A stretch of 64,000 bases of DNA from Notolepis coatsorum (Eukaryota > Chordata > Actinopteri > Aulopiformes > Paralepididae): positions 80,731,184 to 80,795,183 of the forward strand of contig OZ020589.1 in NCBI GenBank assembly GCA_963971535.1. The letters run 5' to 3'. Numbering within the stretch: the first letter of the stretch is position 1; the number at the start of each line of letters is the position of its first letter. Made by a program: the position numbers and the translations under genes. Shown piece by piece: positions 8,576 through 30,705 of the stretch. The notes under the pieces were generated by a model. The model worked only from the letters and a program-made list of their open reading frames with translations, was not told where the DNA came from and ran no database searches.

Positions 8576-8592
8576 GCCGCCTCCTAATTAGT
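8576..8592 (-). other. BEL/Pao polypurine tract
   Basis: On the minus strand a purine-rich AGGAGGCGGC directly precedes the TGTTAAC edge of the 3' LTR. Confidence 0.5.
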
Positions 8593-8669
8593 CCCACCTA
8601 ATTAGCTAAGCAGAGACAGATTAACCGCACTGTCCACTACTCAATGTCTGTTGTGAGGGGTCGGGCAGT

Positions 8670-11600: not shown

Positions 11601-12506
11601 TCCGATCTGGTAGCTGCAGTTGAACACAATACGATCCTTGCCGTTGTGGTGGACTTTGTGGTGCGGCACGTACCATGATTCGGTCGTCTGATCGGCCTCT
11701 TTAATGTCAATTTTCTTTATGTGTCCCGCTGTGATTAGCTTGTTAATCTCAGCGCGGTACACAGTCTCTTGAGCGGGGTCTCTGGCTAGGCGCCGCTCTG
11801 TGTTCAATAGATACCGCTCCGTCGCTTCTTTTGGGGCGTGGAAGGTAGGCATACCCTCTCGCCTCAGGAGTGGAGTTGCGTATCTCATCACTCCGTTGAC
11901 TTTGACTCTCTTTGTCCCCTGCTCGAGGAGGGCTATAGCGTAAATGTCTTCCTTGGAACGAATGTCTTTCTTTTCGTTCTTAAAGGGCATTGTCTCTAGT
12001 GTCCATAGCCTCTCGACATGCTGTAGGAGGGTGGTGTCTTCTTCTGTCACTCTGGAGTGGAGGCAGTTAGTGGCTGCTGTTCGGTTAAGAGACTTAGCGA
12101 GGGGGCCTTGTAATGTCCATCCTAGGCGGGTCTCGACTGCTGCAGGACAGCCTCTGGGCCCTGTGTGGACCCGGTCTATCGGGACGATGAGGTCTGCATG
12201 GTCGGAGACTATCAGCAGGGTCGGGGTGGCACCGTCTATGAGCGGTATAGGTAGTTGACGCAGGTGCACATATTTATCCATCAGCTTGGCGATGGGGTAG
12301 GTGTACTGCGACAGGCCTATTTCTTGGCTGGTGAAAGCGTTAGTAATCCTATACCGTCTCTCTGGCTGCCCGCTTGCTGCGATAGTAAAGGAGACATTCT
12401 CGCCCTTTATCGTCTTTAGATCTCTTCTTATTGTCCGAATCGTCATCTGGTTTTCGCTCCCCCGCAGCCCCAGCTGGGCCGCAGCGGACGCGAGGAGAAG
12501 GGTCTT
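8670..12506 (-). CDS. pol: BEL/Pao Pol: protease end, RT, RNase H, integrase
   Basis: In frame with gag and separated from it only by TAG at 12507-12509, which falls right after the protease DDGS active-site motif. The first ATG after it is at 12446 (1258 residues). Domains in order: remainder of the A17-type protease, RT with GDIKGMFLQV and a YVDN version of the YxDD box, RNase H (DLHVFSDAS, then LWSDSTTVL), an integrase zinc region (HHAG to CLDCRKW), an integrase core with D, D and E (GMDCFGP, LLSDHGTNF, GTWEREV), and a C-terminal DUF5641-like region (WRYSQVLADKFW, PRAMWPAGRV). The frame is open over the full length, as in a recently active copy. Confidence 0.9.
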   Translation of the reverse strand, partial: KTLLLASAAAQLGLRGSENQMTIRTIRRDLKTIKGENVSFTIAASGQPERRYRITNAFTSQEIGLSQYTYPIAKLMDKYVHLRQLPIPLIDGATPTLLIVSDHADLIVPIDRVHTGPRGCPAAVETRLGWTLQGPLAKSLNRTAATNCLHSRVTEEDTTLLQHVERLWTLETMPFKNEKKDIRSKEDIYAIALLEQGTKRVKVNGVMRYATPLLRREGMPTFHAPKEATERYLLNTERRLARDPAQETVYRAEINKLITAGHIKKIDIKEADQTTESWYVPHHKVHHNGKDRIVFNCSYQIGSQNLNKELLPGPTLGPSLLGVLLRFRQDKVAISGDIKGMFLQVRLVEEDKPLLRFLWRERIGDEQPAIYQWEVLPFGTTCSPCCATFALQKHVAEDPAADEEVRQSVGNSFYVDNCLQSISTPEEAEALLLKLRASLIKGGFDLRQWASSDPQVLRSLSPEDKAASSETWMATIPREAQEITLGLVWRFKTDSLHYKHTPLTKEQGRSTALQTTRRSVYRTLARQYDPLGCILPYTTRAKMIVRALWDKDQGCDDPIPEHLASTWREWETELSSLPGVNIRRSYFPPTVRPETCQVDLHVFSDASEVAYGSVAYLRAQEEGGEIHTAFILARSRIAPRKQQSIPRLELCAALAGAQLATLIQRELTIPVQRTILWSDSTTVLTWIRSDSCRYKVFVGVRVTEIQDLTEVASWRYVDTKHNPADVITRGMSLDDLTRHNLYSDGPEFLKLPEEEWPTPTPREASKEEAENKKSMFCGLNTLVSTDPDIDDCLTLESAQLKTFLWHHPEVQLTTDITAADYEEAELLLLQRAQRDSFPDELDCLQGAKPVPSDSRLLHLAPESDAHGLIRVGGRLRRAPDLPDDVKYPIVLNSRHKVTELIIKKYDEDVHHAGAERVFAEIRRRYWILQGREAVRRFQRTCLDCRKWRAQPSIPRMADLPPCCLRLGDKPFHSTGMDCFGPLYIKKGRGTEKRWGIVFKCMTTRVMHIELLPTMSTDSFLMAFRRFTLRKGKPSILLSDHGTNFKGGERELRESFQAMGPELKTHLAPSQIDFQFNPPNAPHFGGTWEREVRSIKTALYAVLGAQTVAEEVLMTVLTEIEGVLNSKPLGYVSSDVADVDPVTPNTLLMGRLDPALPQTMYRPEEANGRRMWRYSQVLADKFWNSFLLHYLPSLQTRQKWVKERDNLTEGTVVMIIDQSLPRAMWPAGRVSKVITGADGKVRAAEVLVQGRIYTRPVARLIELPRLPDTIDDDHDPMTL

Positions 12507-14876
12507 CTATGACCCGTCGTCAAGGACGGCGTAAGTGTCCATGACCTTATCTTGGTAACTCAGTGTTACGCGGACCACCTTTAAGAGCACCCGGGCGCCC
12601 CCGCTGCTGGCGGGGTCAATGTACATAACACTTGCCTTTGTGCTGCTTGAGGGTGCAGGCTTTCTTCTGTTACTGTCGTGTAGGACATCTAGGTGGGCTC
12701 CGTCACACCGACTACACCTCTTCTTTAAGCGGCAATCGGCTGCCATGTGACTGCGCGCACATCGGTAACAGCGTCGGTTGGACTTTATCCATTGACTCAC
12801 CTCGTCGGCGGTCATCTTCTTGAACGTGTCACATTGTGACAACCAGTGTTCCTTTTCGCAGTACGGGCACACCATCTTCCACTTCTCTTTCATCGAGGGG
12901 GTACTGTGGTTCTTGCTGCTCGGTACTGATTCTGATTGGTGCATGACGGTCACCAATCTGCGGCCATCGTTTGCTCTCCTAGGTCCCTCTCTGGAGCTTG
13001 GTGTGCTCCGCATGAACGTATCCAACCGTAGGCTGTTGACTTCTCTCGCCAGGAAGTCGGCTAGGTCTAGGAGGGATGGCTCGGGACCGTTAGGATCACG
13101 GTGGTCTCTTTGCCGCCTGAAGCGCTCTTGTCGGGCGGGCGGAAGCTTCTCTAAAATCCTCTCGACATTAGAGTTTGCGTACAGTTCGTGCATACCCTTT
13201 TCTCTTTGCGCCCCCAGCATCCCTACCAGGGATTGTACCTTGATAGACAGGTCATCTAGTGAGCGATTGTCTGTGGCTGGGGGTAGGCGGTCAATATGCC
13301 TTATCTCTTGTATTACGTAGTCCCATATGCGTCCATATCTTTGGTCGAGTGCTGCTAGAGCCGCTGTGTATGGGGTAGTAGAGGTGGCATAGGCCAGCGC
13401 TATATTGTGCGCTCGGGGCACCTTGAGGTGCTTCAGTAGGATAGCATACTTGTACGGTTCATCAGCTACATCGGACATCATTGTCTCTAAGCACATTCGT
13501 AGCTCCGTGTACTGTGCTCTGTTCTCGTGGGTGAAGTCCGGAAACGTCGGTGTGCCAATGTATGATGCCATGGATGGCTGGCACATCGGTGAGCGTTGGA
13601 AGAGAGGCCTCCTAGGCGAGTCTCCTCTTACGCCTCTTGGTGGGCTGGTACCTGCTGGGTACCATGGCCCGCGTATTCAGGTGCTGTTCCTCGGGGCTGG
13701 TTGTGCGTCAAGCTCACCCGTGAATTGAGTCGGGGGTCTGTAGCGCAGAGCCGTGGGGGTAGAGCCTGGGCTGTACTGGACCTCCTGGTCCTGTGGAGTA
13801 CTGTGCTGCTGTCGGGCTTGACTCTCCTCCTCTCCCTCTTCTTCTTCCTCTGGCAGGTCCTCTAGATCCTGTAGTCGTCTATTTAGCCTCTCCGCGGTGT
13901 AGACCGTTTCTTCCTTGTAGCTGGGTCTCACTTGGACCGGTCGGGGAAGGGGTTCGGAGGGGGGTATAGGCTCTCTCTGGTGGTCGGGCTCAGGGTTGCT
14001 TGATCGGGTAGGGGAGGGTGCCCTTGACCCTTGTCTTGACGAGGCCCTGGAACCCCGTGCGGAGGGAGGGGGTGTTGCCCTGGTGATCAGCTGCTCCATT
14101 ATCTGCGCTTGTAATCGGTCGCGCTCGGCTTCGCGCTTGGTGAGAGCGAGGTCGCGCTCTGCTTCTCTTTGGGCACCGGCAGCGGCGCGCTGGGCTTCGG
14201 CGGCGGCGCGCTGGGCTTTGGCCCGGTCCCTTACCATATTCTCTTCCGTCTGAAGGCGTCTAATCTCTAGACGTATACGATCTTCGTCGCTCCGTTGCTG
14301 CGCTTGAAGGCGTTCTCTTTCCATGGAAGAATGTTCGCGCTCACTAAGCGTCTGTGCTTGGAGTCGATCGCGCTCTGTTGAGGCTGCTAGACTGGCGAGG
14401 AATGCCTGTGCCAGCATCTTGTCCGCCTCGCTGGGGGAAGACGCTGGTTGGGGTGATCCGCTCCTGGCAGTACTCGTTGGAGATCTGTTCTCCTGTGGCG
14501 AGTCCTGGAGATCCATCTCCGGGGTGCTCGCCTCTTCTTGTAGCGGGTCGAGTTCCATCCCTGGAGGGCTGTCTTTATCCTGGAGCTCTCCGGGGACTAC
14601 TTCTTCGGTCTTGGCGGGGGGTAAAGTCATGTCGGGTCCCTCCTGGTCCCTACCGTGAGCTTGGTCAGTTACGTTAGAACCCACTAGGGCCTCTATTGGC
14701 GGGGTAGCCTGGTCGATAGGGTCGGACATAATTTTACGATCTACTTTTTCCGCGTTTACCGTCTGTAGAAAGCTAGGTAGTATATTGGCAACGTAATCCT
14801 CTAAGTACTGAGGTGTCTGCCGTCTACGCTGCGGGCGATCTACTTTAGGAGAACCGTTTTGTGGAGTGTTCATCAT
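12507..14876 (-). pseudogene. gag: BEL/Pao Gag with internal stop, up to protease active site
   Basis: First in-frame ATGs are at 14876 and 14873; upstream only a GTG. The N-terminal part (to 13677) is Ser/Pro-rich and then a long charged coiled coil built on ERxxLQAQ and AQRAAAEAQR repeats, ending in an acidic patch. TGA at 13677-13679 interrupts the frame, which continues in phase into a DUF1759-like gag core (FTHENRAQYTELRMCLE) and three Cys/His zinc clusters (CPYCEKEHWLSQC, CYRCARSHMAADC, CSRCDGAH). It closes at the protease DDGS motif and a TAG. Both stops could be single C-to-T changes, so they look like decay rather than programmed signals. Confidence 0.85.
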
Positions 14877-15311
14877 TGGCCATGTCAATATTAATACCAC
14901 TATATTAATATTACACTAGTTACCCTCCGGCTCGAAGGACCAATTGTAACTGAGGGGTACAATTCCCTGACTGTATTGATAAGTATGGTATCATTAAACC
15001 ACTACCGTCTTATGTACTTTAATTACTGGCCATACAGTACATGATATATAAATATGATGAACACTTCCCACAATGAATCGGTTCCACACAAAGTTGTAAT
15101 TAAGTATTTATTGCAGCAAAAGGTACATAATATACTTCTCTATTTTACTTTGGATGCGCTTATAAGGCAAAGGAATGTGCGTAGGCAAATCAATAATGAA
15201 TGTCCATTCTCTGGTTACGCAGGAGGTAATTATACAACCTGAATCTTAGGGAATTATATCTATGGTACACTAGTAATATATAGCGGGAGATACTGGAAGG
15301 GTCCCCCCGGT
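14877..15311 (-). other. BEL/Pao 5' leader
   Basis: About 435 bp between the 5' LTR and gag. On the minus strand it begins with a run of C and G (ACCGGGGGGACCC) that could hold the primer site; I cannot assign a tRNA. A short hairpin-like pair, TGTAACTGAGGGGTACAATT, lies near 14945. No gene is seen. Confidence 0.4.
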
Positions 15312-16279
15312 TGTAAGCCAGCAGGGGTAGAGGATCTGTCGGTAGTAGAGCCTGGGTCAACGATGATAAGGAGACTCCGAGTACGGGAGACGGTGCAATA
15401 AGATCTTGATCCACAGACGAATACAGCTGTTCTCCGTAGCCTGTAGATCCACAGGGAAGAAAGCTAGCCTGCCTCAGGCTCTCTGAGGCGCAGACTCGAC
15501 GTGGCTCCTCACAGGGTAAATCCCACACACGTGTAGGCGTCGGCGATTCTCCGCTCCATTAATCACAGGACCAAAAGCAAATATAATCCATCCGCAAAGG
15601 GCTATGTTGTCGTCGGGTAGATTAATCCAGTGTACATGTCCACACGGTTCTCGTCTAGGGCTCCTCGGGTGAAAGCGCCATGAAAGCAGCCCAGCCTGGA
15701 TAAGCTCTCTAGCTGATACGAGGAAGCGTTGGTGATGCTGGTCACTGTAGAACTTTAGCCGCACGATACACTATACACAAATAGACTATTACTGACTTAA
15801 TAGAAATATGTCGCACTCGACGGTATAGCGCCAAACTCTGACAATTCAGTTATTAATTCGCACGCGGTCTCAATGCTCTTATTTGGGGCCAAACAGGGCA
15901 TACTTCACCGCACGGAGTATCGTGGGTGAGGCTTCAACTTATTGGGTAACATACTTCTGTATTCACCTGCGCCATATTTATATGCACGGCGAACAATCTA
16001 GTGCCAACCTCATTTCTGTCTCGTATTCTTGGGCAAGGCCGGGCATGTACAGACATGTCTTGACGGTGGCTTTGAACCTGACTCTGGAGGCATGGCCTTG
16101 GCGCCTGTGGACCGCTGTCCAATAGGAGAATGAAATATTATGGTCTGTACTAGGCTAAAGGGATATTCCGTGTATATGTACAAGGAATATACAAGGGATA
16201 TCAAACGATATACAAATATTATGCGATATATATCAATCAATAAATATATATATTCGGTTTAATCTGATCCTTTGTAACA
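15312..16279 (-). repeat. BEL/Pao 5' LTR with about 350-bp extra block
   Basis: 968 bp, TGTAAGCC...TTGTAACA on the plus strand (so TGTTACAA...GGCTTACA on the minus strand). It has a block at about 15728-16078 absent from the other LTR. On the minus strand that block contains CATATAAATATGG, a possible TATA box, so the 3' LTR may have lost its promoter rather than this one having gained sequence. Confidence 0.85.
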
Positions 16280-16400
16280 GAGGCCTTATCTGTAATGCAA
16301 AGTGGTAAGGCTCCTGGACGGGACGGTATCCCACCAGAAATGTACCTATCATGCTGGGATGTAATAGGACCCCTATTACTTAATATGATGTTATACTCAA
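16280..16400 (+). mobile_element. L1 LINE fragment, RT start (part 1)
   Basis: Translates without stops to an L1-type RT segment around SGKAPGRDGIPPEMY, the conserved GKAPGxDG box. It begins exactly at the BEL LTR edge, so its 5' part was lost or displaced there. It stops at a TTAA and resumes at 28222 in the same reading frame. Confidence 0.85.
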
Positions 16401-17187
16401 TTAACACTTTGAGTGCCGGGACCCGTCTTTAGACGTCTTTGCTGGCCATGCTAAAGTTGCCAGAGGACGCGTTACGTCGTCCTTATATCAATATTTCAAA
16501 AATCTGCGATCGGATTCATATGTCCCCTCCGCTGGCCTGAGATCCACCAGCAGGACCCACTGAGCTCTCTGGCGGTTCAGGAGCGCCACCTGGTGGCCGA
16601 TCGGCGCAATCGCCAAACAGGATGTTGAATAGAGGTTGTCATGACGACCGTAGTACTTCCGGGCGCTCGCTATAGTTCATGGGACTCTGGCTCGTCACGC
16701 TACACGTGATCGATTGGCAATAACTCGATAAACAACATGATTTGGACGTATATACCATTATACAAGCTGGAGATGGACCGGGTAAAAATATATCCCATAA
16801 TGATAAGATTTCTACTCGACGATGATCGCCCAATGGCGCGCGGAGACTGGGGTGAGTTTCAGCGTGTAACGTTACCGTCTTCGATACTAACTGCTATTAT
16901 CAACATTTGACCCACATTAGATGATTGGTATAACGCTGCCCACGGAATTATAAACGCCCCCTCGCCCATCCGGTCAACATCAGATGACGTGTAGTAACTT
17001 CTAGAAGTACGTCTAGTTGGAATTTTTTATATCGCGCTGATTGCCATCAAACTGTATTTCATCATCAATATAATGCATTTGGGGCTATATATCACGTTCT
17101 GGAGAAAGCTGCAGAAAGAGATGAAAACATACTTATACATTAGACCATACTTTACTATGAATATGTGAATGAAAAAGTTTAACGTTG

Positions 17188-18949
17188 TGTTGAAAGCTAC
17201 AGGTCGCCTCTATATATCTCAATCACCTACTCGAGATATAAACCTGCGGCCGCTCGATATCCCCCGGCGAGGTGCTAAACTCGCCAAGTTCTCGAGTCAT
17301 TTTACTATTTCTGTCTAGATTACTTCAAGTCACTGGTCTTGTGATATCCAGTTGATATGAAATGTAATCATGAAGAGTTGTTAATCTCTTCTTGTTTGAA
17401 ATAAACCGAATATATGTCTAGGAGAACCATTATCGCCTGTAATAAAAATAATATTATTATTATCATCATTTTACGAAAAGGCTTGTAATACTGCTCATTT
17501 GAAAGCTTGGTTGTATTACTACTTTTTTAATAAGTATTACCACTGTACTAACACGTAATCATTGTTTGCACTCCCCGGCGACTCCTGTCCTCCTCCTCCT
17601 CCTCCTCCGTCAGCGGAACCGACCGTCTTGAACCCTGCAGTGATTCAGACGGTCGAGGTCCCACATAAGACAGAGTCCGTCTGGACACAGAGACACCGGA
17701 ACCCGCAAACAACACCCATCTACATGCATAGTATTTCTTATCAGTACATAGCATATACATATATATATATTTTTTTTTTAGCTGAAAAGCATTAACCAGT
17801 CAATTGATTCAATCTGTATTTCAGGACATAGTCACCTCAGAGGAAATCAGGGCACGGCTGGTATTTGCTGGCATTGCTGGCAGGAATCAGTCCAAGAACT
17901 CAATGGATTATAAAAAGTCATTTTTATTTCAATGAAGTTACAGAAAAAGACTTGAGCTAAAATATCCATTACAGCTTAAAAGAAGTATAAAACAAAAAAC
18001 ATCTCATCTGGCACGGCTTGTGCCCGCAAGCAACATCTTGTCTTCCAATTCACACAATGGTAAAAACTTCAAAATCTCTCAAAAAAGTCTCTAAGCACCA
18101 TTCTTCTTCTCTCTCCAGCTCAGTGTAAAAATCCTGCCTGTGATCTCGCCAGTTGGCCCTTATAAAGGGCCCCATGGTCTCTTCTGCTTATTGGTCCAAA
18201 TACAGCGCTGTCACCGTGATGTCATTTCACCAGCCAGTCAATGCACGGCTCGTGGGGACTGGCTCTACTCCCATTTTACTCCACTAGGCCGTAACTCGAA
18301 AAAGTAATTGTAACGTTTTTGCTGGAACAGAGCATGTCTGTTCTGCTGGCTCACTGTAAGGGTTAACTTCCTGACTCCCCTTCTTCCTCCCTCTGTCTCG
18401 GCTCTGGAAAGTCCCTTCTTGAACAGAGAGGCCCCCGTACATTCCTCTGGGCTGTAGTCATTATTGAGAGGGAATAACTGGCCTGTGTTCCTACAATACA
18501 CCATATGCCTGTACTGCATACTACATACCTGTAATACATCAATATACTATTGTATATTGCATTGTATATATTGTATATATATATATATATATAAATATAC
18601 AATACACCTGTACCAATCATTGGTTTTATTCTATGCAAACAGGACAGGTTTAAACTGTGCCGACTTGCTCTCAGCTCAGGCCTGCTTGTCACTCCGACTG
18701 CACATTAACTGTAACATAGTTTTATAAGTGTATAAAGAGTATACAGGTCATATACATAGCTTCAATCATATATAATAAACATATGAATTTTATACAAAGT
18801 GTCACTCGTCGACTTGTGGCACTTAAAATGTGTTTACACATAACGTGTTTCTATTCCATTGTCCAGGAAGAATCTACAGACATTCCCCTTAATCATATAA
18901 GATCAGGATGTCATACCCAGTGTCACTTAGTTGGCTGTGACACTTTACA
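17188..18949 (-). repeat. 3' LTR of the zinc-finger retroelement
   Basis: 1762 bp, TGTTGAAAGC...CTTTACA on the plus strand. Near-identical to 26286-28045. On the minus strand it carries a CCAAT and TATA-like pair near 18165-18200 and an AATAAA at 17923-17928. It contains a short CCT-repeat, an AT run and a T run that vary in length between the copies. Confidence 0.92.
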
Positions 18950-18961
18950 CCCCCTCTGTCA
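18950..18961 (-). other. Polypurine tract of the zinc-finger retroelement
   Basis: Minus strand reads GACAGAGGGGG directly before TGTAAAGTGTC, the U3 start of the 3' LTR. This is the expected plus-strand primer and fixes the orientation. Confidence 0.75.
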
Positions 18962-19543
18962 TCCTGGTCGGTCATTTTCCATTGTCTTAATAGCGTCTGT
19001 ACTGGGGAACGAGATGGCGATTGTGGGGTCACGTGGCTGTGACTCTCCACACCCCCTCTGCCATCTTGGTGCCTTGTTACCCTGGTAGCCGGCGGGAAGA
19101 CTTGCATCTGTTGTTCCCTGGCAGGACGGCTCGACAGGATAGGGGTCACGTTGTTGCTTGGTATCCGGCGGGAAGACTTGCATCTGTTGTTCCCTGGCAG
19201 GACGGCTCGACAGGATAGGGGTCACGTTGTTGCTTGGTATCCGGCGGGAAGACTTGCATCTGTTGTTCCCGGCCGATGCACCCAGGCTGTTGTCGTCTTG
19301 GTCATCTTGGTCACCTTGGTCATCTTGGTCATCTTGGTCACCTTGGTCATCTTGGTCATCTTGGGGTCGCCCCCTCTGACCTCTTGGATCTCTCCCATAG
19401 TTTGAGGTAGGTTGATTTGTCACTTCTCGGGCGACCCCCACGGGTCCCCGAGAATTGTAGCAGCAGTCCTCTATTGACGTGTGGTTGGCCTGGTCATGTG
19501 ACCCTGTCCGTAGGTCTCGCAGGACATCACAGATACAGTCCAC
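18959..19543 (-). CDS. Low-complexity ORF near the 3' end of the zinc-finger retroelement
   Basis: 194-codon open frame, rich in Asp/Gln/Gly (DDQDDQGD repeats from a 9-bp tandem repeat) and in three copies of a 76-bp repeat that encode Arg/Gln-rich segments. No domain recognised. It may be only an open stretch of tandem repeats, or a downstream exon. A second short frame at 19579-19809 encodes repeated RPP units. Confidence 0.2.
   Translation of the reverse strand: MDCICDVLRDLRTGSHDQANHTSIEDCCYNSRGPVGVAREVTNQPTSNYGRDPRGQRGRPQDDQDDQGDQDDQDDQGDQDDQDDNSLGASAGNNRCKSSRRIPSNNVTPILSSRPAREQQMQVFPPDTKQQRDPYPVEPSCQGTTDASLPAGYQGNKAPRWQRGCGESQPRDPTIAISFPSTDAIKTMENDRPG
19085..19370. repeat. 76-bp and 9-bp tandem repeats
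   Basis: A 76-bp unit starts at 19085, 19161 and 19237 (about 2.5 copies). It is followed by about nine copies of CTTGGTCAT/C (19285-19365). Confidence 0.85.
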
Positions 19544-19629
19544 AGAGGACTCATTTCTTTTCTCTCTTTCAGGTCCATTCAGGGCTCTCGTCGCCCTGTA
19601 ACCTGGGTCCAGGCCGATGTCTCTCTGTC

Positions 19630-19700
19630 CGGTCTGGGAGGTCTAGGAGGTCTGGGAGGTCTGGGAGGTCTGGGAGGTCTGGGAGGTCTGGGAGGTCTAG
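19630..19700. repeat. 10-bp tandem repeat GTCTGGGAGG
   Basis: About seven copies of a G-rich 10-bp unit. On the minus strand it encodes Arg-Pro-Pro runs. Confidence 0.85.
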
Positions 19701-20081
19701 ATGAGGACCCTGAGGATGCTCTGTAGCTTGACCTATCCCGGTCTTCCTCCATTTCCGATTTCTGACCTGAGTCAGTATATTCCTTCTTGCCATTCGCTGC
19801 GTCGTCCACTGACTTCGGGGGACAGCCCCCCCTGTCTAAGAATGCGGCACTGGTTCAGGTTTTGTCCCTTTACCAGCGCACCTTTACCAGCCCACATTGT
19901 TCACAGGCCTTTCGGACTGTTATCGCTCTTTGTTTGGCTTTATGTATGAGAATGTTGTTAGTTCTCAGGTATACCAACATCCTCCTACTTCCGGCATGTC
20001 CAGGGTTATCATATACCTGTCTGATCATGTGAGTAGCCTCGTCCTGTTAGCAATGGCTAGTTAGCCTGCTATTCGCTCCTA

Positions 20082-20290
20082 TTTGCAATGGCTATTTCAG
20101 CCTGCTCGCAATGGCTATTTCAGCCTGCTATTCGCAATGGCTATTTCAGCCTGCTATTCGCAATGGCTATTTCAGCCTGCTATTCGCAATGGCTATTTCA
20201 GCCTGCTATTCGCAATGGCTATTTCAGCCTGCTATTCGCAATGGCTATTTCAGCCTGCTATTTGCAATGGCTATTTCAGCCTGCTATTCA
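20082..20290. repeat. 26-bp tandem repeat
   Basis: About eight copies of a CGCAATGGCTATTTCAGCCT-starting 26-bp unit (starts at 20107, 20133 and so on), with degenerate first and last units. No function visible. The 20291-21240 stretch that follows holds no gene. Confidence 0.9.
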
Positions 20291-21247
20291 CAAAGTAGAG
20301 TTTTTTCTACTTAAGTTCTGACTTTAAGTAAGCATTTAGTTACTTCAAGTCATGAGTAAACCTTTTTACCGTATTTCACAAAAATATACTTTAATTGTGA
20401 TTCTTTCTTTAAGTAGAACCTTCTACGTTTTTGACTGTAAGAAAACATTACGTAACTTTTTAGTCATGAGTAACCGCTACTTCAAGTCGTTACTTATCAA
20501 CCCTCTCTTGTTCCTGATAGATTTTTTACCAATATACTTTTGGCTGTCTGCTGCGCTCTGCAGACCATCTACGTCACCAGTGTTCCAGATCTCGAACATT
20601 AGGAAGAGTCTTGGTTGGAGAGGTTCTGCCGATAAGACCAATCTTGAGTAAGGTTGACTCAAATCTGTAACTAATTCTACTCCAGAGACACCTGACAGCA
20701 GTTATTTCAGTTAATATTCTTTCGGCTGTTGATACCTATTTAATTAGTATACAGCCCAACTCACTTGAACTCATGTTCTAAGCCCCGGAACCTCCAATCC
20801 GTTTTGACAGACCTATAAACCAGTGACTTGGCCGCCTAAGCACCACAGCGTCCTGTATGCTGAGGCTTCCAAGTCTCCACAAATCTGATAGGCCCGTCGG
20901 ATACAGAGACCCTGATGCTCGCTCTGTCCCCCCGCGTCAAGGTGCTAAGCTCGATGAGAGTTTGCAGAGTCTCAATTTGTTACCCATAGGCGCTGGTGAG
21001 TGTACATCTCATGCAGCTGATATGGTTGGTAGGGTGCTAACCTACCAAATGGTTGCTGTCAGGAAATCCCTTCTGAATGAAATAGATTACAAATTCACTT
21101 TACTTTACTCTGGGTTTAGAGCAAGGACGGACATCTTTACATATTATACTTAAAATATATACAAAATGCATGTAGTATTCTATGTCATGTTCCTTCCTAA
21201 ATGACAATAACACTACATATTCTTCCTCTTGACAGATGAGCGGTATG

Positions 21248-21471
21248 TCAAGTGCAGTTTGCACTTGCTTGAGTGTCACGTGTCAGGGCCCCCGAAGGTA
21301 ATTTCTCCCTTTGTTGCCCTCATCTCTGCTTGCTGTTCTGGGGTTAGTTTCTCCCCCATGTTTCTCCCGTCAAGTGCAGGTTGCACTAGCTTGAGTGTCA
21401 TGTGTCAGGGCCCCCGAAGGTAATTTCTCCCTTTGTTGCCCCTATCTCTGCTTGCTGCTCGGGGGTTAGTG
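21248..21471. repeat. 122-bp direct duplication
   Basis: TCAAGTGCAGTTTGCACT at 21248 recurs at 21370 (with GG for TT), and the rest follows nearly identically, just past the end of the tail ORF. Confidence 0.85.
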
Positions 21472-21475
21472 CGGC

Positions 21476-22246
21476 CTACTCGTCTGGAGGTAGGTATAGG
21501 TAATTCTTCTTCCTTGTTCTCTCCTTGGTTGTTTTCGGGGGAGGCTCCTGGGAGGCCCCCCTTTTGTCAGATAGCATTATGACTTGGTCATACAGCCTAC
21601 ACTCGATACGTAGCTGGTCTTGTGACCATGCTGCGCATCGGGCTGCCAGTAGGTTACCCCCTGGGACTCCTCCGAATAGCTTTTCAAGCAGAAAGCATGA
21701 TCCTTGCATAGGTGTTCCATTCATGACTGATCCTGCTGCATCATTGAGAGACATGCTCCCGCCTCGCACCTGTGGGATTAGTTTCTCCACCATCTTATAC
21801 CCTGGATCTTGACCGGGGGTCCTTACTTCTCTTTCCATCAGTTGGTCCATTGAGGCCCTTTCGGGGATCTCTAGTCCTTTGAGATGTCTCAACATGCGAG
21901 CTAGCGTCTCGTGTGCTTGTATCTCCTGAGCGAGCATCTGCTGCGCCAGCTTCTCATGAGCTAGCATCTGCTGCGCCAGTTTCTTCTGAGCTACCCGTGC
22001 CAGCTTCTCCTGGGCTAGCATCTCCTGGGCTGGCTTCTCTTGTGCTAGCTCCTCTTGAGCTAGCTTCTCTTGTGCTGGCTCCTCCTGAGCTGGCTTCTGG
22101 CGTGCCAGCTCCTCCTGAGCTGGCTTCTCTCGTGCTGGCTCCTCCTGAGCTAGCTTCTCTCGTGCTAGCTCCTCTTGAGCTAGCTTCTCTCGTGCTAGCT
22201 CCTCCTGAGCTAGCTTCTCTTGTGCTAGCTTCTCTTGAGCTATTAC
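21476..22246 (-). CDS. In-frame extension after the zinc-finger ORF stop (unknown protein)
   Basis: 257 sense codons in the same frame as the zinc-finger ORF, separated from it by a single TGA (22247-22249). The first 95 or so residues are about 20 copies of a pentapeptide of the form L-A-Q/R-E-K/E, encoded by a 15-bp tandem repeat; it is charged and probably helical or coiled-coil. The rest is a non-repetitive domain with no family that I recognise (near GLEIPERASMDQLME, GGVPGGNLLAARCAAWSQDQ) and a basic end (KTTKERTRKKN). The first in-frame ATG is at 22021, inside the repeat. It could be a readthrough extension, a separately spliced product, or part of one longer ORF cut by a recent nonsense mutation. 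Confidence 0.5.
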   Translation of the reverse strand, partial: VIAQEKLAQEKLAQEELAREKLAQEELAREKLAQEEPAREKPAQEELARQKPAQEEPAQEKLAQEELAQEKPAQEMLAQEKLARVAQKKLAQQMLAHEKLAQQMLAQEIQAHETLARMLRHLKGLEIPERASMDQLMEREVRTPGQDPGYKMVEKLIPQVRGGSMSLNDAAGSVMNGTPMQGSCFLLEKLFGGVPGGNLLAARCAAWSQDQLRIECRLYDQVIMLSDKRGASQEPPPKTTKERTRKKNYLYLPPDE

Positions 22247-24805
22247 TCAATATGTTGAGTAATCAGAACTGTGTTCAGTTTCAGAGGTATTTAGCTCCCC
22301 ATCTTGTTCAGGCTCAGACTCAGTTTCACCTGAAGGTGTCATCTGTGGCCTCGGGTTCTGATCCTTGATCTGAATGTCGCCATCCTCCTCTTCTGAGCCA
22401 TAGAAAATGGAACAGTGCTCATAATTGATGTTTTTGGCCTTTAGGTACTCGTCTAGAGAGTTGAACGCCTCTATGTCAGTGGAGGGAGATACTCGTTTTG
22501 AGGTGGAGCCTGGCGCCTCAGAAAGAGGAAGAATGACTACATCGTCTTCTTGGTTTTTTCCATTTCCACACTCATCTTCGATAGTGCGTCGCAGTGTTCT
22601 TGAGCGAGACACATCACCCCTTACTGCCCCCGTTAAGCAGGTTGGCACCTTGCATGGCTGCCTCCGCCGTCTGTGTCTCTTAAGCCCTTGCAGGTTCCGG
22701 AAGCTCATGTAACACTGGTCACAGTAGTATGGTTTCTCTCGTGTGTGTACCATGTGGTGTAGTGTAAGGTTACGCTTCGCCTTGAAGCTCTTTCCACACT
22801 GGTCACAGCAGTAAGGTTTCTCTTCTGTGTGTACCGTGTGGTGAATTTTAAGCTCTCTCTTCGTCTTGAAGGCCTTCTCACACTGGACGCAACCGTAAGG
22901 TTTATTTTCTGTGTGTACCACGTGGTGACGTCTAAGGTGATCCTTCGTCTTGAAGCTCCTTCCACACTGGTCACAGCAGTAAGGTTTCTCCTCTGTGTGT
23001 ACCGTGTGGTGTTGTTTAAGTTCTGCCTTCGTCTTGAAGGTCTTCCCACACTGGTCACAGCAGTAAGGTTTCTCTTCTGTGTGTACCACGTGGTGTCGTT
23101 CAAGATCTGCCTTTCTCTTGAAGCTAATGTCACACTGGTTACAGCAGTAAGGTCTCTCTCCTGTGTGTACCACGTGGTGACTTTTAAGATCCCCCTTCGT
23201 TTTGAAGGTCTTTCCACACTGGGCACAGCAGTAAGGTTTCTCTTCTGTGTGTACCATGTGGTGTATTTTAAGATGTGTCTTCGTCTTGAAGCTCATGTCA
23301 CACTGGTCACAACAGTAGGGTCTCTCTCCTGTGTGTACCATGTGGTGACGTTTAAGATCCGTCTTCGTCTTGAAGCTCATGTCACACTGGGCACAACAGT
23401 AAGGTTTCTCTCCTGTGTGTACCAAGTGGTGTCGTTTAAGCTCTCCCTTCGTTTTGAAGGTCTTTCCACACTGGGCACAGCAGTAAGGTTTCTCTTCTGT
23501 GTGTACCATGTGGTGTATTTTAAGATGTGTCTTCGTCTTGAAGCTCATGTCACACTGGTCACAACAGTAGGGTCTCTCTCCTGTGTGTACCATGTGGTGA
23601 CGTTTAAGATCCGTCTTCATCTTGAAGCTCATGTCACACTGGGCACAACAGTAAGGTTTCTCTCCTGTGTGTACCAAGTGGTGTCGTTTAAGCTCTCCCT
23701 TCGTCTTGAAGGTCTTCCCACACTGTGCACAGCAGTAAGGTTTCTCTCCTGTGTGTAACATGTGGTGTATTTGTAGGTTTTTCTTTCTCTTGAAGCTCTT
23801 CCCACACTGGCCACAGCAGTAAGGTTTCCCTTCTGTGTGTATTAGGTGGTGATGTTTAAGGTGATCCTTCGTCTTGAAGCTCCTTCCACACTGGTCACAG
23901 CAGTAAGGTTTCTCCTCTGTGTGTACCGTGTGGTGTTGTTTAAGTTCTGCCTTCGTCTTGAAGGTCTTCCCACACTGGTCACAGCAGTAAGGTTTCTCTT
24001 CTGTGTGTATCATACAGTGATTTTTAAGCTCTCCCTTCGTCCTGAAGGTCTTCCCACACTGTGCACAGCAGTAAGGTCTCTCTCCTGTGTGTAACATGTG
24101 GTGTATTTGTAGGTTTTCCTTTCTCTTGAAGCTCTTCCCACACTGGCCACAGCAGTAAGGTTTCCCTTCTGTGTGTATTAGGTGGTGATGTTTAAGGTGA
24201 GTCTTCGTCTTGAAGCTCCTTTCACACTGGACGCAACCGTAGGGTTTATTTTCTGTGTGTACCGCGTGGTGACGTCTAAGGTGATCCTTCGTCTTGAAGC
24301 TCCTTCCACACTGGTCACAGCAGTAAGGTTTCTCCTCTGTGTGTACCGTGTGGTGTTGTTTAAGTTCTGCCTTCGTCTTGAAGGTCTTCCCACACTGGTC
24401 ACAGCAGTAAGGTTTCTCTTCTGTGTGTATCACACAGTGATTTTTAAGCTCTCCCTTCGTCTTGAAGGCCTTTCCACACTGGGCACAACAGTAAGGTTTC
24501 TCTCCTGTGTGTACCAAGTGGTGTCGTTTAAGCTCTCCCTTCGTCTTGAAGGTCTTCTTACACTGGGCACAACAGTAAGGTTTCTCTCCTGTGCCAATTA
24601 CTGCTTGCTGTACAGCCGGCAGCTCTGGATATTGTGATTTGCTTGGTTCTGTGAATTCCTTACTTCCCGCAAACGTTTCAGGGGACTCTGGGTGTTCCTC
24701 CCGTTCTCCTAGGTAGTCTAGACCCAGGTCGGGTATGGACACTCCCAATCCCTTATCCGAGGGTGATTCCTCCTCTATGATGTGGGAATGATTGTGAGAC
24801 ATCAT
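22247..24805 (-). CDS. Multi-finger C2H2 zinc-finger protein encoded in an LTR element
   Basis: 852 residues from ATG at 24805. The N-terminal 70 residues are acidic and Ser/Pro-rich, with no KRAB, SCAN or BTB motif. Then come 22 clear C2H2 fingers and one degenerate last finger (H-x3-R in place of the final His), each 28 residues, of the form YCCxQCGKTFKTKxxLKxHHxxH joined by HTGEKPY/HTEEKPY linkers. The doubled CC before QC is distinctive. Blocks of fingers are duplicated (fingers 11-13 with 14-16; 2-6 with 7-10). The C-terminal 150 residues are acidic, with a Ser/Glu-rich end. Such proteins bind DNA in the nucleus; the target is unknown. It is coded in the sense direction of the surrounding element, downstream of its 5' LTR, so LTR-driven expression is likely. 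Confidence 0.9.
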   Translation of the reverse strand: MMSHNHSHIIEEESPSDKGLGVSIPDLGLDYLGEREEHPESPETFAGSKEFTEPSKSQYPELPAVQQAVIGTGEKPYCCAQCKKTFKTKGELKRHHLVHTGEKPYCCAQCGKAFKTKGELKNHCVIHTEEKPYCCDQCGKTFKTKAELKQHHTVHTEEKPYCCDQCGRSFKTKDHLRRHHAVHTENKPYGCVQCERSFKTKTHLKHHHLIHTEGKPYCCGQCGKSFKRKENLQIHHMLHTGERPYCCAQCGKTFRTKGELKNHCMIHTEEKPYCCDQCGKTFKTKAELKQHHTVHTEEKPYCCDQCGRSFKTKDHLKHHHLIHTEGKPYCCGQCGKSFKRKKNLQIHHMLHTGEKPYCCAQCGKTFKTKGELKRHHLVHTGEKPYCCAQCDMSFKMKTDLKRHHMVHTGERPYCCDQCDMSFKTKTHLKIHHMVHTEEKPYCCAQCGKTFKTKGELKRHHLVHTGEKPYCCAQCDMSFKTKTDLKRHHMVHTGERPYCCDQCDMSFKTKTHLKIHHMVHTEEKPYCCAQCGKTFKTKGDLKSHHVVHTGERPYCCNQCDISFKRKADLERHHVVHTEEKPYCCDQCGKTFKTKAELKQHHTVHTEEKPYCCDQCGRSFKTKDHLRRHHVVHTENKPYGCVQCEKAFKTKRELKIHHTVHTEEKPYCCDQCGKSFKAKRNLTLHHMVHTREKPYYCDQCYMSFRNLQGLKRHRRRRQPCKVPTCLTGAVRGDVSRSRTLRRTIEDECGNGKNQEDDVVILPLSEAPGSTSKRVSPSTDIEAFNSLDEYLKAKNINYEHCSIFYGSEEEDGDIQIKDQNPRPQMTPSGETESEPEQDGELNTSETEHSSDYSTY

Positions 24806-24995
24806 GTTAGCACTGGTTTGTTAGCCGATGGTGAGCTAGTTAGCTTCCGTCTGGCTAAAGCCAGCTCATGGGTGTTAGCACTGGCTTGTTAGCCGATGTA
24901 GTGCTAGTTAGCTTCCGTCTGGCTACGGCCAGCTCATGGGTGTTAGCACTGGCTTGTTAGCCGATGTAGTGCTAGTTAGCTTGCAGTTCTGTGAA
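24806..24995. repeat. 68-bp tandem repeat before the zinc-finger ORF
   Basis: About 2.7 copies (starts 24806, 24874, 24942) of a unit beginning GTTAGCACTGG and rich in GCTAGTTAGC. It lies immediately upstream of the ATG in the mRNA leader. Confidence 0.85.
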
Positions 24996-25008
24996 TTCTT
25001 TTTGACTT

Positions 25009-25998
25009 CGCTTCACATCCAGTCTCCCCTCCTTACAAACAGTGTCTTTGGGCTAGGGAGCCCTCGCCTTTCTGTGAACGGCCGTTTTGGCTCGCTTCAC
25101 ATCCACACTCCGCTCCTTACAGGGTGTCTCTGGGCTAGGGAGCCCTCGCCTTTCTGTGAACGGCCGTTTTGGCTCGCTTCACATCCACACTCCGCTCCTT
25201 ACAGGGTGTCTCTGGGCTAGGGAGCCCTCGCCTTTCTGTGAACGGCCGTTTTGGCTCGCTTCACATCCACACTCCGCTCCTTACAGGGTGTCTCTGGGCT
25301 AGGGAGCCCTCGCCTTTCTGTGAACGGCCGTTTTGGCTCGCTTCACATCCACACTCCGCTCCTTACAGGGTGTCTCTGGGCTAGGGAGCCCTCGCCTTTC
25401 TGTGAACGGCCGTTTTGGCTCGCTTCACATCCACACTCCGCTCCTTACAGGGTGTCTCTGGGCTAGGGAGCCCTCGCCTTTCTGTGAACGGCCGTTTTGG
25501 CTCGCTTCACATCCACACTCCGCTCCTTACAGGGTGTCTCTGGGCTAGGGAGCCCTCGCCTTTCTGTGAACGGCCGTTTTGGCTCGCTTCACATCCACAC
25601 TCCGCTCCTTACAGGGTGTCTCTGGGCTAGGGAGCCCTCGCCTTTCTGTGAACGGCCGTTTTGGCTCGCTTCACATCCACACTCCGCTCCTTACAGGGTG
25701 TCTCTGGGCTAGGGAGCCCTCGCCTTTCTGTGAACGGCCGTTTTGGCTCGCTTCACATCCACACTCCGCTCCTTACAAGGTGTCTCTGGGCTAGGGAGCC
25801 CTCGCCTTTCTGTGAACGGCCGTTTTGGCTCGCTTCACATCCACACTCCGCTCCTTACAGGGTGTCTCTGGGCTAGGGAGCCCTCGCCTTTCTGTGAACG
25901 GCCGTTTTGGCTCGCTTCACATCCACACTCCGCTCCTTACAGGGTGTCTCTGGGCTAGGGAGCCCTCGCCTTTCTGTGAACGGTCGTTTGACTGCGCT
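25009..25998. repeat. 82-bp tandem array in the 5' leader
   Basis: Ten or more near-perfect 82-bp units plus degenerate ends. Each holds the palindrome AACGGCCGTT and a short GGGCT...AGCCC stem. One unit differs by a single base (near 25780). It lies between the primer site and the ORF, where retroelements usually keep packaging signals. The short ORFs it creates in every unit are by-products. Confidence 0.95.
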
Positions 25999-26268
25999 TC
26001 TGTCTCTCTAAACTGCCAGACATTTTAGAGAGAGGGTTTTCTTTACCCCTTTTTTTTTTTTTTTTTTAATCCAATTTTGCGGGCTCAACCGCTCCACCAG
26101 CAATGCCCCCACTATGCAGATGCCTTTAATTTGCCACTGCTCTCCATCGAGGGCCCTACAGATCAATATCCTTTGACTGGTGTATTCTAAAACTCGGTTC
26201 TCCGTTTTTTTTTTTTTTCCAATATTTCTATTTTATTTTATTTTGGCTGTTATCTTACCGATCTCAGC

Positions 26269-26285
26269 CCTAACCAGGGACGCCA
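26269..26285 (-). other. Primer binding site, tRNA-Asn-like
   Basis: Minus strand right after the 5' LTR reads TGGCGTCCCTGGTTAGG. The first 12 bases match the complement of the 3' end of vertebrate tRNA-Asn (GTT) including CCA, as I recall that tRNA; the match then breaks. The interval 25999-26268 holds only T-rich leader. Confidence 0.75.
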
Positions 26286-28045
26286 TGTTGAAAGCTACAG
26301 GTCGCCTCTATATATCTCAATCACCTACTCGAGATATAAACCTGCGGCCGCTCGATATCCCCCGGCGAGGTGCTAAACTCGCCAAGTTCTCGAGTCATTT
26401 TACTATTTCTGTCTAGATTACTTCAAGTCACTGGTCTTGTGATATCCAGTTGATATGAAATGTAATCATGAAGAGTTGTTAATCTCTTCTTGTTTGAAAT
26501 AAACCGAATATATGTCTAGGAGAACCATTATCGCCTGTAATAAAAATAATATTATTATTATCATCATTTTACGAAAGGGCTTGTAATACTGCTCATTTGA
26601 AAGCTTGGTTGTATTACTACTTTTTTAATAAGTATTACCACTGTACTAACACGTAATCATTGTTTGCACTCCCCGGCGACTCCTGTCCTCCTCCTCCTCC
26701 TCCTCCGTCAGCGGAACCGACCGTCTTGAACCCTGCAGTGATTCAGACGGTCGAGGTCCCACATAAGACAGAGTCCGTCTGGACACAGAGACACCGGAAC
26801 CCGCAAACAACACCCATCTACATGCATAGTATTTCTTATCAGTACATAGCATATACATATATATATATATATTTTTTAGCTGAAAAGCATTAACCAGTCA
26901 ATTGATTCAATCTGTATTTCAGGACATAGTCACCTCAGAGGAAATCAGGGCACGGCTGGTATTTGCTGGCATTGCTGGCAGGAATCAGTCCAAAAACTCA
27001 ATGGATTATAAAAAGTCATTTTTATTTCAATGAAGTTACAGAAAAAGACTTGAGCTAAAATATCCATTACAGCTTAAAAGAAGTATAAAACAAAAAACAT
27101 CTCATCTGGCACGGCTTGTGCCCGCAAGCAACATCTTGTCTTCCAATTCACACAATGGTAAAAACTTCAAAATCTCTCAAAAAAGTCTCTAAGCACCATT
27201 CTTCTTCTCTCTCCAGCTCAGTGTAAAAATCCTGCCTGTGATCTCGCCAGTTGGCCCTTATAAAGGGCCCCATGGTCTCTTCTGCTTATTGGTCCAAATA
27301 CAGCGCTGTCACCGTGATGTCATTTCACCAGCCAGTCAATGCACGGCTCGTGGGGACTGGCTCTACTCCCATTTTACTCCACTAGGCCGTAACTCGAAAA
27401 AGTAATTGTAACGTTTTTGCTGGAACAGAGCATGTCTGTTCTGCTGGCTCACTGTAAGGGTTAACTTCCTGACTCCCCTTCTTCCTCCCTCTGTCTTGGC
27501 TCTGGAAAGTCCCTTCTTGAACAGAGAGGCCCCCGTACATTCCTCTGGGCTGTAGTCATTATTGAGAGGGAATAACTGGCCTGTGTTCCTACAATACACC
27601 ATATGCCTGTACTGCATACTACATACCTGTAATACATCAATATACTATTGTATATTGCATTGTATATATTGTATATATATATATATATAAATATACAATA
27701 CACCTGTACCAATCATTGGTTTTATTCTATGCAAACAGGACAGGTTTAAACTGTGCCGACTTGCTCTCAGCTCAGGCCTGCTTGTCACTCCAACTGCACA
27801 TTAACTGTAACATAGTTTTATAAGTGTATAAAGAGTATACAGGTCATATACATAGCTTCAATCATATATAATAAACATATGAATTTTATACAAAGTGTCA
27901 CTCGTCGACTTGTGGCACTTAAAATGTGTTTACACATAACGTGTTTCTATTCCATTGTCCAGGAAGAATCTACAGACATTCCCCTTAATCATATAAGATC
28001 AGGATGTCATACCCAGTGTCACTTAGTTGGCTGTGACACTTTACA
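26286..28045 (-). repeat. 5' LTR of the zinc-finger retroelement
   Basis: 1760 bp, near-identical to 17188-18949. It directly abuts the TSD CGTTG at 28046-28050. On the minus strand: about 780 bp of U3, a TATA-like box, an R region to the AATAAA at 27021-27026, then a long U5. Confidence 0.92.
27256..27292 (-). promoter_or_regulatory. CCAAT box and TATA-like box in the 5' LTR
   Basis: Minus strand: CCAAT (27288-27292) and, about 28 bp downstream, TTTATAAGG (27256-27265). The TATA region is almost palindromic (GGCCCTTATAAAGGGCC), so it could also fire on the plus strand. Confidence 0.45.
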
Positions 28046-28221
28046 CGTTGCTACACAATGAACAATACATATAGGACTTTGAATGGGCCCTAATAATGGC
28101 AATGTAGCAATAGAATTAAAAAAGTTATAGCCCTGCAAAGAAGGGGACTTTCTCCATAGACAAATAGCGCTGGCAATCTATGGTATATCATGAATTTAAC
28201 CTTAGGCAGCCAAAGTGTTAA

Positions 28222-30705
28222 GGAGGAGAATTTCCATAAGATTGACAATATTGCACTCATAACAGTCCTCCTTAAAAAAAGACAAAGACCCCACCGATTG
28301 CGGTAGTTATGGACCCTTGAGCCTCCTCGGAACCGATATCAAGCTGTATTCCAAGGTATTAGCCATCAGACTTCAAAAGCATATGACGTCTTTGGTTCAT
28401 CCTGATCAGACTGGCTTCATAAGAGGCCGCTTGATCACGGATAATATAAGACGGATATTACACGTGTTAGATGCCAGCAAGGATGACACCCCACCTATAG
28501 CGATGTTGTCCCTGGATGCGATGAAAGCCTTTGATAGGTTGGAATGGTCTTATTTATGGGCAGTACTAGAAAGGATGGGATTAGGAAAAGGATTCATTGA
28601 TATGATTAAAGTATTATACAAAGACCCATCGGCCATGATTACAACAGGTATAATCACCTCCGAAATCTTTCCGGTATCGCGCTCTGCCAGACAGGGTTGC
28701 CCTCTTAGTCCCGGACTATTCGCTTTATCACTAGGGCCTTTAGCACAATATATAAGACAATCCCAATCCATAGAACCAATAGAAATCAAGGGCACACAAC
28801 ATCATATTAGTTTATATGCGGACGACGTAATATTGTTCATGCAAAACCCGATCACTTCAATGCCTCAGCTTCTCAAGTTGATTGATGACTTTGGTAATCT
28901 ATCGGGATTTAGGATACATTGGCCAAAGTCGGCCTTCCTTCCACTTAATGCCCCTGCAAAGAATATACTCCCTCCAGAAAAAATACCAATGGTTAAACAC
29001 TCCAGATGTTTAGGAGTTGAAGTATTTCCTACTATAAGCCAAACGGTGAAGTACAATTACATAAAATTCCAAGATAAGATCAAATACGACTTTGACAGGT
29101 GGTCCAAACTTAAAAACTCAGTACAGGCACGGGTATCAATAGTTAAGATGGATGTTTTACCTAGAATCAACTTCATTAGCTCAATGTTACCGTTACCCCC
29201 TCCTGATGGTTACTGGAAAAAATTACACTCCACCGCATACAAATTTATTTGGAATAACAAACCTCCACGTATAAAAAGATCCTCCGCACAGAGAAACAAA
29301 GCCGACAGAGGTATGGCATTTCCAGATTTTTACCACTATTTTAAAGCGTACTCTTTAAGACCACTGACAGCCTGGTTTGATTCACAAGCATCTGTATCCT
29401 GGAGAAACTTAGAAGAAAATATAGTAGCACCACATAGACTGCAGGACATAGTATACGCCATATTATCAATTAAGCAATGCGAATTGAAATTTGGCCCCAT
29501 TATTACTCATGTGATCCGGATATGGCGTGAAACACAAAAAAAATATTCTAACCAACATAAATGACATAGTCATACTCCCCTATTCAATAACAATGCACTC
29601 CTGATTGGAAAACGACCTATAAGATACCCTAAATGGGAAAAGCAGGGCATACACACATTAGGAGATGTTTTCAACAAACAGGGTTTTTGTAGCTATAAAG
29701 ACATACATAAAAAAATGTATCTCACCAGTTCCACATATTATTTTTACGCACAGTTATTGTTTTTTTTTGTTTGAAGGCTCATGGAGTCCCATTAAGGATA
29801 CCAATTGAGCACCACAGATATCACAAATTCTTCTATGAAAGAGAGACATCGAGAGGTTTCGTATCTGATTTTTATCATCACTTACTAATGTCCTCGTATG
29901 GAATCCTCCCCCTAGACTCAGTCTGGAGGAGGTATATACCAGACTTGGAAATAAATTTTGATTGGCAAGAAGTGTGGGCAAACGTTCTAATTGCGTCACG
30001 TAACCCGGACCATCAACAAATGAATCTTAATTATATTCATAGGACATACCTGACTCCTATAAGATTGAACGGAATGGGACTTAAACAAGACTCCAGATGT
30101 TCCTTATGTACAAATGGGGATGAGGGTACATTCATGCACATGTATTGGGATTGTCCAGTTAAGATATTCTGGAAAGAAGTGTCCCAGCAATTATCAAATT
30201 TCTTATTTCTGAACATACCTGTACACCCCTCTGTATTGCTGTTGAATGATGTTTTTCAGTTTGCAGCCCCTATACAGCTAAAGAGACTAGTTTTATCTGG
30301 TCTCACAGCGGCTAAAAAGATGATAGCATCACAATGGTTTCAACCGGAAAAAATGTGTCGGAAGGTATGGGTTCTTACATATCTCGATGTGATTTATCTA
30401 GAAATATCTACACCAAGAATTTTAGGTGTCAGTGAAACCAAAATTGCAATCTGGTTAGAAGTGGTGGAGAGAATAAAAGCTAGCATATGAATTGTAGTGC
30501 CTGGTTAGGAACGAATGATAATGGATGGATTATCCAAGTGGGGGTCCGGGGGGGGTGAGCGAGCGAGAGCATATGTATGTAGGGTATTAGATAGCAAGTA
30601 TTAGGTATATATCTCGTATACTACATTTATTTAAATGGTGATTTCATTGGATGTTTGTGTCTAATTTTATGTTATGTTTAAAAAATAATAAACAAATAAA
30701 ATACA
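28222..30705 (+). pseudogene. L1 LINE, RT to 3' end (part 2)
   Basis: Continues the RT from 16400 after the TTAA. A frameshift lies in an A-run near 28272. The long frame to 29564 holds L1 RT landmarks: QTGFIRGRLITDN, SLDAMKAFDRLEW, ARQGCPLSPGLFAL and the active site YADD. A second frameshift lies in the 29540-29770 stretch, also A-rich. The frame 29771-30490 holds the L1 C-terminal Cys motif (CSLCTNGDEGTFMHMYWDC). A 200-bp 3' untranslated part ends in an A-rich tail with AATAAA near 30686. Dead copy. Confidence 0.9.

Follow-up and report, generated by a model that had tools for sequence, protein, structure and literature searches.

An LTR retrotransposon family carrying a C2H2 zinc-finger reading frame in Notolepis coatsorum

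What is an intact 23-finger C2H2 open reading frame (ORF) doing between the long terminal repeats (LTRs) of a young retroelement? The question is raised by a 64-kb stretch of the Notolepis coatsorum genome (64,000 nucleotides; GenBank assembly GCA_963971535.1, contig OZ020589.1, positions 80,731,184 to 80,795,183 of the forward strand), here called the window, and by an earlier reading of its sequence alone (the sequence-only reading), which proposed that the element at 17188-28045 had recently mobilized the ORF and spreads it. Our analysis makes it very probable that the window element inserted recently and belongs to a non-autonomous sub-family of LTR retrotransposons with a C2H2 zinc-finger cassette as its coding content; this judgement covers identity, mobility and non-autonomy, and the role of the finger protein is weighed separately below. 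The features on which the argument depends are the following.

17188-28045, minus strand: the whole LTR element, within the 64-kb window
17183..17187, no strand: left copy of the target-site duplication (TSD) CGTTG (sequence)
17188..18949, minus strand: 3' LTR, 1762 bp (sequence comparison)
18950..18960, minus strand: polypurine tract, sense GACAGAGGGGG, directly 5' of the 3' LTR (sequence)
20080..20293, minus strand: 26-bp tandem repeat array (repeat analysis)
22247..24805, minus strand: zinc-finger ORF of 852 aa, with an N-part of ~70 aa, 23 C2H2 fingers and an acidic tail (Pfam scan)
24805..25008, minus strand: 68-bp tandem repeats directly upstream of the zinc-finger ORF (repeat analysis)
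25042..25997, minus strand: 82-bp tandem repeat array (family D9) in the leader (repeat analysis)
26253..26261, minus strand: putative splice-donor-like site TCGGTAAGA in the leader, 28 nt in (sequence)
26267..26285, minus strand: primer binding site, sense TGGCGTCCCTGGTTAGGGC, abutting the 5' LTR (sequence and host tRNA 3' pattern)
26286..28045, minus strand: 5' LTR, 1760 bp (sequence comparison)
28046..28050, no strand: right copy of the TSD CGTTG (sequence)

The hallmarks of an LTR retrotransposon are all present: direct LTRs running from TG to CA in sense orientation, a short TSD, a tRNA primer site and a polypurine tract. Each of these had been named by the sequence-only reading, and each was located, on the minus strand. 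The two LTRs are 99.55% identical over 1763 columns; the earlier estimate of about four substitutions was right about their near-identity and low in its count, which is six substitutions plus one 2-nt microsatellite indel. Immediately inside the 5' LTR lies the 12-nt core of the primer site, TGGCGTCCCTGG. These first 12 nt of the site complement the 3' terminus of tRNA-Asn with its CCA, and the host genome contains one exact place that fits a tRNA-Asn-like 3' pattern matching the primer site. The 5-bp size of the TSD fits Gypsy and is not decisive for Ty3/Gypsy versus Retroviridae; no reverse transcriptase was seen in the copies. Read in sense, the 5' LTR contains TATAAG at 784 and AATAAA at 1020 (of 1760), among other such motifs. 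Sixteen ATGs precede the zinc-finger ORF in the leader; together with the splice-donor-like site, they make splicing before translation plausible.

The ORF itself is intact and sense-oriented relative to the element. Its 23 finger stretches, recognized by Pfam PF00096 and PF13465 in support of the sequence-only reading, stand in tandem with TGEKP-type linkers, and the same Pfam scan found no KRAB domain. Searched against protein databases, the 852-aa product has generic C2H2 matches by the thousand, with 29-51% identity among the best 120 listed, and its tail (residues 700-852) has no match at E up to 10.

We searched the 3.42-Gb genome for further copies. An LTR search (40 scored of 3447 candidates, 58 matches) yielded 26 full-length LTRs among the matches listed, 14 of them at 99-100% and 20 at at least 97% identity, counting the window's own two. 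Sequence was fetched for 20 loci beside LTR matches, 17 lying between two matches and 3 beside one. The zinc-finger ORF was found in 14 of the 20, all among the 17 flanked on both sides, and was absent from L037, L042, L044, L046, L047 and L048. The same ORF at 14 of 20 loci excludes chance as the explanation for the association of LTR and ORF, and it bears out the earlier claim that the element spreads the ORF. In one of the loci that lack it, L037 (G000:C46:66539200-66544899), short tandem repeats (GEEVPSA/KRFLLLV when translated) make up a large share of the 5.7 kb that separates the two LTR copies. With the window included, 10 of 15 copies have an uninterrupted ORF (the window, L031, L032, L033, L035, L036, L040, L041, L043 and L045); L036, whose sequence is partial, is counted as intact from a frame of 857 reported at both ORF ends. 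The five broken copies have a stop (L029, L038), an insertion (L030), a frameshift (L034) or an altered start (L039).

Could an ordinary host gene instead have ended up between misplaced LTRs through an assembly artefact? The sequence-only reading had named such an error, or a lack of other copies, as outcomes that would overturn it. We found nothing in favour of the artefact, and the structure recurs at many places in the genome. The flanks differ in two other copies, on C46 (55.66 Mb) and C900, and each of these has a 5-bp TSD of its own (GTATG in both); they are therefore separate insertions. We give the artefact practically no weight. Near-identical LTRs, many copies and different sites with 5-bp TSDs together uphold the recent mobilization of the ORF by an LTR element.

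The family is large, and a lack of other copies is clearly contradicted. The 152-aa tail matches at least 150 places at 93-100% (150 of 150 scored, the best of 31,710 first-look candidates, a set in which ordinary fingers will be numerous), with a stop inside in 3 of the 150. Stop-to-stop frame lengths fall into a 28n+17 series in 78 of the 150 listed tails, with ~5 expected by chance; such a series is what intact ORFs differing by whole 28-residue fingers would give. Some tail copies lie in very long open frames of up to 2038 codons (G000:C1:156038529 and others). The 68-aa N-part is found at 87-100% in the best 150 of 587 candidates. Among the matches listed, 88 N-part/tail pairs lie within 6 kb of each other; the tail is downstream in 86, and both ends report the same frame length in 68. 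N-part matches with no listed tail show a frame length of 561 ten times and 589 five times, which may mark a sub-family with a different C-end.

Arrays differ between copies by whole fingers. The 15 arrays from the window and 14 loci (L036 in part) hold 13-26 recognized fingers drawn from a common set, spaced at 84 nt throughout except for skipped units and one gap of 2235 nt. Under a stricter finger pattern, 270 fingers reduce to 49 distinct sequences, 18 of which occur in at least four copies, and some rare fingers resemble chimeras of two others.

What remains of a retroelement's own genes? Three features of the window element, all on the minus strand, bear on this.

21476..22246, minus strand: open frame of 256 aa past the TGA of the zinc-finger ORF and in the same frame, with LAQEE repeats and then the gag-position C-segment (frame analysis)
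21539..21910, minus strand: gag-position C-segment, 124 aa, common to sister elements, with no Pfam gag match (sequence comparison)
19882..20028, minus strand: integrase zinc-binding (H2C2) remnant, 49 aa within a 58-aa frame (PF17921, E 0.016, below cut-off)

The sequence-only reading had stated that the element contains neither gag nor pol. No pol gene was found, and of protease, reverse transcriptase and integrase the window element shows the H2C2 remnant only; given that remnant and the gag-position fragment, the claim was too strong. Genome-wide, the remnant recurs at 94-100% in the best 150 of 686 candidates. The C-segment is 84% identical in DNA and 72-74% in protein to the corresponding ORF of sister elements. 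We write 'gag-position' rather than 'gag' because that ORF has no notable Pfam or PDB match (best PDB E 0.66), and it has no match among IMG/VR viral contigs. The 256-aa frame has no protein-database match at E up to 10, and the SCAN domain (PF02023) was matched neither by this frame at E up to 1 nor by the 832-codon frame described next at E up to 10. Two single-sequence structure models of the C-segment have low predicted confidence (pLDDT 62 and 65); the first has no PDB match at E 0.001, and we draw nothing from either.

Sister elements show where the finger cassette belongs. In L042, L049, L050 and L051 the family's 3' part is present (in L042 the leader also), and a long gag-position frame replaces the fingers; in L042 it spans 832 codons (L042:1300-3798) with no recognized domain. 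Searched genome-wide, the middle domain of this frame recurs in the best 150 of 534 candidates, with the 832 frame in 83 of the 150 and frames of 914-937 in 16. The elements with the 832-codon frame are a burst. L044, L046, L047 and L048 have neither fingers nor a gag-position frame, and their leader joins the C-segment across ~65-260 bp. These junctions imply that the cassette has a defined place, at about internal positions 1482-4369 of the window element. Beside the short element copy in L048 lies a 166-aa frame (6741-7241, minus strand of the locus) with no Pfam match, which by eye resembles a frame at window 50163-50600. A 570-base piece ~3.1 kb downstream of one 937-codon gag-position copy resembles, by eye, the family's 3' region and not pol.

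In some diverged copies the order of parts is changed. Ten tails match that of L097 at 99-100% among the matches listed (one spans residues 8-152 only). In five of them a C-segment precedes the tail on that strand, with 1212-1467 nt from start to start. Four of these five report one open frame for C-segment and tail (1102, 756, 864 and 874 codons), and one reports two different frames (396 and 409). Of the remainder, two are paired instead with an N-part whose frame agrees with that of the tail (381 and 633), and for three no partner of either kind is listed. The evidence on these fusion copies consists of the places of their matches and the lengths of their frames. Because the tail query starts within the last finger and ~10-13 fingers would fit into the spacing, we infer a finger array between C-segment and tail. 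Were it there, the finger-tail module would have two alternative upstream parts, one of which would put it at the position expected of a nucleocapsid. In 13 other C-segment/tail pairs the tail comes first, as in the window.

This arrangement bears on what the finger protein might do. Under the mechanism we propose, the LTR promoter would drive a full-length RNA, which would be primed by tRNA-Asn, with reverse transcriptase and integrase supplied in trans by a partner element; that RNA would also be the template for the finger protein, perhaps once the 16 upstream ATGs had been spliced out. We tentatively prefer a role in which the protein binds nucleic acid of the element itself, to the element's benefit and in a Gag-like or self-regulating manner, because the finger-tail end sits in one open frame downstream of a gag-position segment in some diverged copies. 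We hold this self-binding role to be a serious possibility that falls somewhat short of an even chance.

A stronger form of it would make the array a replacement nucleocapsid. In the fusion copies the array would lie downstream of the gag-position segment, the usual place of zinc knuckles. The C2H2 array would then be part of a Gag-like structural protein, and, as it reshuffles, it would recognize the tandem repeats of the leader and let the element evolve a sequence-specific code of its own for packaging or targeting. Within one tail group, 4 of 10 members have the gag-position segment in frame 5' of the tail and one more has this order in broken form, which is consistent with such a role, as is the tandem 82-bp array beside the primer site. 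Set against it, the fingers of the fusion copies are placed there by spacing, the gag-position segment has no capsid or SCAN match in Pfam and yields the low-confidence models already mentioned, and the window copy has the reversed order with a stop in between. We regard a replacement nucleocapsid, and with it a packaging code, as unlikely.

Passive carriage is the main rival. A deletion derivative would once have picked up a host zinc-finger gene and carried it with no benefit to element or host. That 5 of the 15 examined copies are broken agrees with this, as do the numbers of the fingerless sister elements (best 150 of 534 candidates; 832 frame in 83 of 150) and the patterns of change described below, neutral-like in the fingers and not significantly different from a ratio of 1 in the tail. 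It accords less well with the many open frames kept by diverged sub-families (in the score-ranked best 150), with arrays that change by whole fingers and with a tail that shares its frame with the gag-position segment in four diverged copies. Passive cargo is, in our estimate, as likely as the self-binding role and likewise below an even chance.

A recent one-off capture of a host gene is unsupported, as the cassette has several diverged sub-families and its tail is in frame with the gag-position segment in those four copies. No parent host gene was found among the best 150 N-part and tail matches, lists that are filled at 87-100% and 93-100%, respectively, and in which a more diverged parent would thus escape notice.

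Several observations weigh against the reading of a mobile, non-autonomous family whose finger protein serves the element. The TSD check covers three copies, those with both flanks in sequence. The match lists hold the best 150 ranked by protein score, and intact copies are over-represented in them as a result. No pol was seen by eye among frames of at least 150 codons in the 20 fetched loci (L036 and L030 partial; L047 with 1829 N). An autonomous partner, which the sequence-only reading had suggested looking for, was not found through the integrase remnant, the gag-position middle domain or the region before the C-segment, searches that covered best-scored matches only and do not establish its absence. 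Comparison of nonsynonymous and synonymous change (dN/dS) between copies, also suggested, did not show selection on the ORF. Among 60 tails (46 fetched, the window's and 13 from longer loci, with L034 dropped; 45 distinct), we counted 49 nonsynonymous and 26 synonymous changes and 0 stops, where 52.2, 20.7 and 2.1 would be expected under the same spectrum, a dN/dS-like ratio of 0.75 (P = 0.10); the zero stops are no evidence, because the three listed stop-bearing tails are not in the fetched set. Private finger changes number 24 nonsynonymous, 6 synonymous and 1 stop against 21.0, 9.0 and 1.0 expected, a ratio of 1.7 that looks like neutral or relaxed change, short of significance, in a count that leaves out eight strongly different fingers.

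Other partitions of the data give similar pictures. Shared tail variants (23 nonsynonymous, 12 synonymous) do not differ from singletons (26 and 14), the last 72 codons alone give a ratio of 0.65 (P = 0.11), and the N-part and tail of the window and L041, the most different copy, are separated by 10 nonsynonymous and 3 synonymous changes, too few for a test. Constraint on the ORF is unproven, and the counts are also compatible with constraint on a few active lineages. They matter as well for the idea of a domesticated gene that gives the host a transcription factor, which the intact ORF and the promoter-like motifs of the LTR would suit. The insertion is very young (LTRs 99.5% alike) and multicopy and its private changes are neutral-like, and we consider domestication highly improbable.

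The window contains other retroelements. The one at 7961-16280 is a BEL/Pao element; its terminal repeats are nearly identical (99.3% and 98.1%), and its pol is a long open frame (8670-12506, minus strand) with Peptidase_A17, RVT_1 and integrase H2C2 domains. Frames of LTR-retroelement type at 754-6406, one gag-like with a CCHC knuckle and a pol with reverse transcriptase, RNase H and integrase, have no DNA match to the zinc-finger element in a self-comparison of the window. At 40500-45415, direct repeats of 1.2 kb (99.1%) surround a frame of 768 aa in which Pfam recognizes a CCHC knuckle and nothing else; this may be a further young element that has gag alone. An older LTR element at 47297-55586 has integrase-bearing frames between repeats of 92-96% identity, and a reverse transcriptase frame resembling that of a long interspersed nuclear element (28263-30490; RVT_1) starts ~210 bases beyond the right TSD. 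A long (CTGT)n microsatellite at 58083-58810 is open in several frames on both strands.

C2H2 arrays are a main vertebrate host defence against retroelements; when a retroelement itself multiplies such an array and reshuffles it, that relation is reversed. This also offers a direct route for the possible origin of new zinc-finger genes. Across animals, the copy numbers of zinc-finger (ZNF) genes and retroelements are reported to be correlated (PMC10547256); part of the ZNF ORFs counted in a genome such as this one would be retroelement copies, which would bear on that correlation. The FiNZ-ZNF and KRAB-ZNF families, described there as repressing retroelements, likewise have long tandem C2H2 arrays in a large set of copies. 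In contrast to them, the copies of the family described here move as retroelements, and the 852-aa ORF shows no KRAB in Pfam.

Host genes have been captured by other non-autonomous LTR elements: maize Bs1 and similar elements consist of LTRs, primer site and polypurine tract around foreign coding sequence and are moved in trans. The present family resembles them in this layout and, under the mechanism proposed above, in its movement in trans; it differs in that its coding part is a tandem C2H2 array, variable by whole fingers and with an open frame in many copies. Zinc-finger domains are also present in endogenous retroviruses of frogs and zebrafish: a frog survey reports zf-H2C2_2 in ~40% of the SnRV-like elements, and SCAN in more than half of the Gmr elements (PMC4131045), and in a zebrafish survey 1119 gag genes gave 45 Znf and 97 SCAN predictions (PMC8672886). 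The cited passages give domain counts rather than array organization, reading frames or the history of sub-families, with the zebrafish Znf type (C2H2 or CCHC) unstated; the window element has a 23-finger ORF and no pol. Zinc-finger domains in vertebrate retroelements are thus already known; in the literature searched, with subscription papers mostly outside it and absence from print not claimed, we found no report of an LTR family with an intact multi-finger C2H2 ORF in many copies, nor a description of a variant such as this one, a family in which no pol has been seen and which spreads an ORF that is intact and reshuffles its 13-26 fingers.

The order of parts in the fusion copies would be like that of SCAN-zinc-finger proteins. 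SCAN is derived from the capsid of Gmr1-like Gypsy elements, as summarized in PMC4592553 with reference to Emerson and Thomas 2011. SCAN-zinc-finger genes and the fusion copies would be alike in that a C2H2 array follows a segment that is gag-derived in the former and in gag position in the latter, the array being placed here by spacing and the gag nature of the segment by position. The former are host genes with SCAN, whereas the fusion copies belong to a mobile element and their segment has no Pfam SCAN match; they offer a living comparison for the possible origin of SCAN-zinc-finger proteins.

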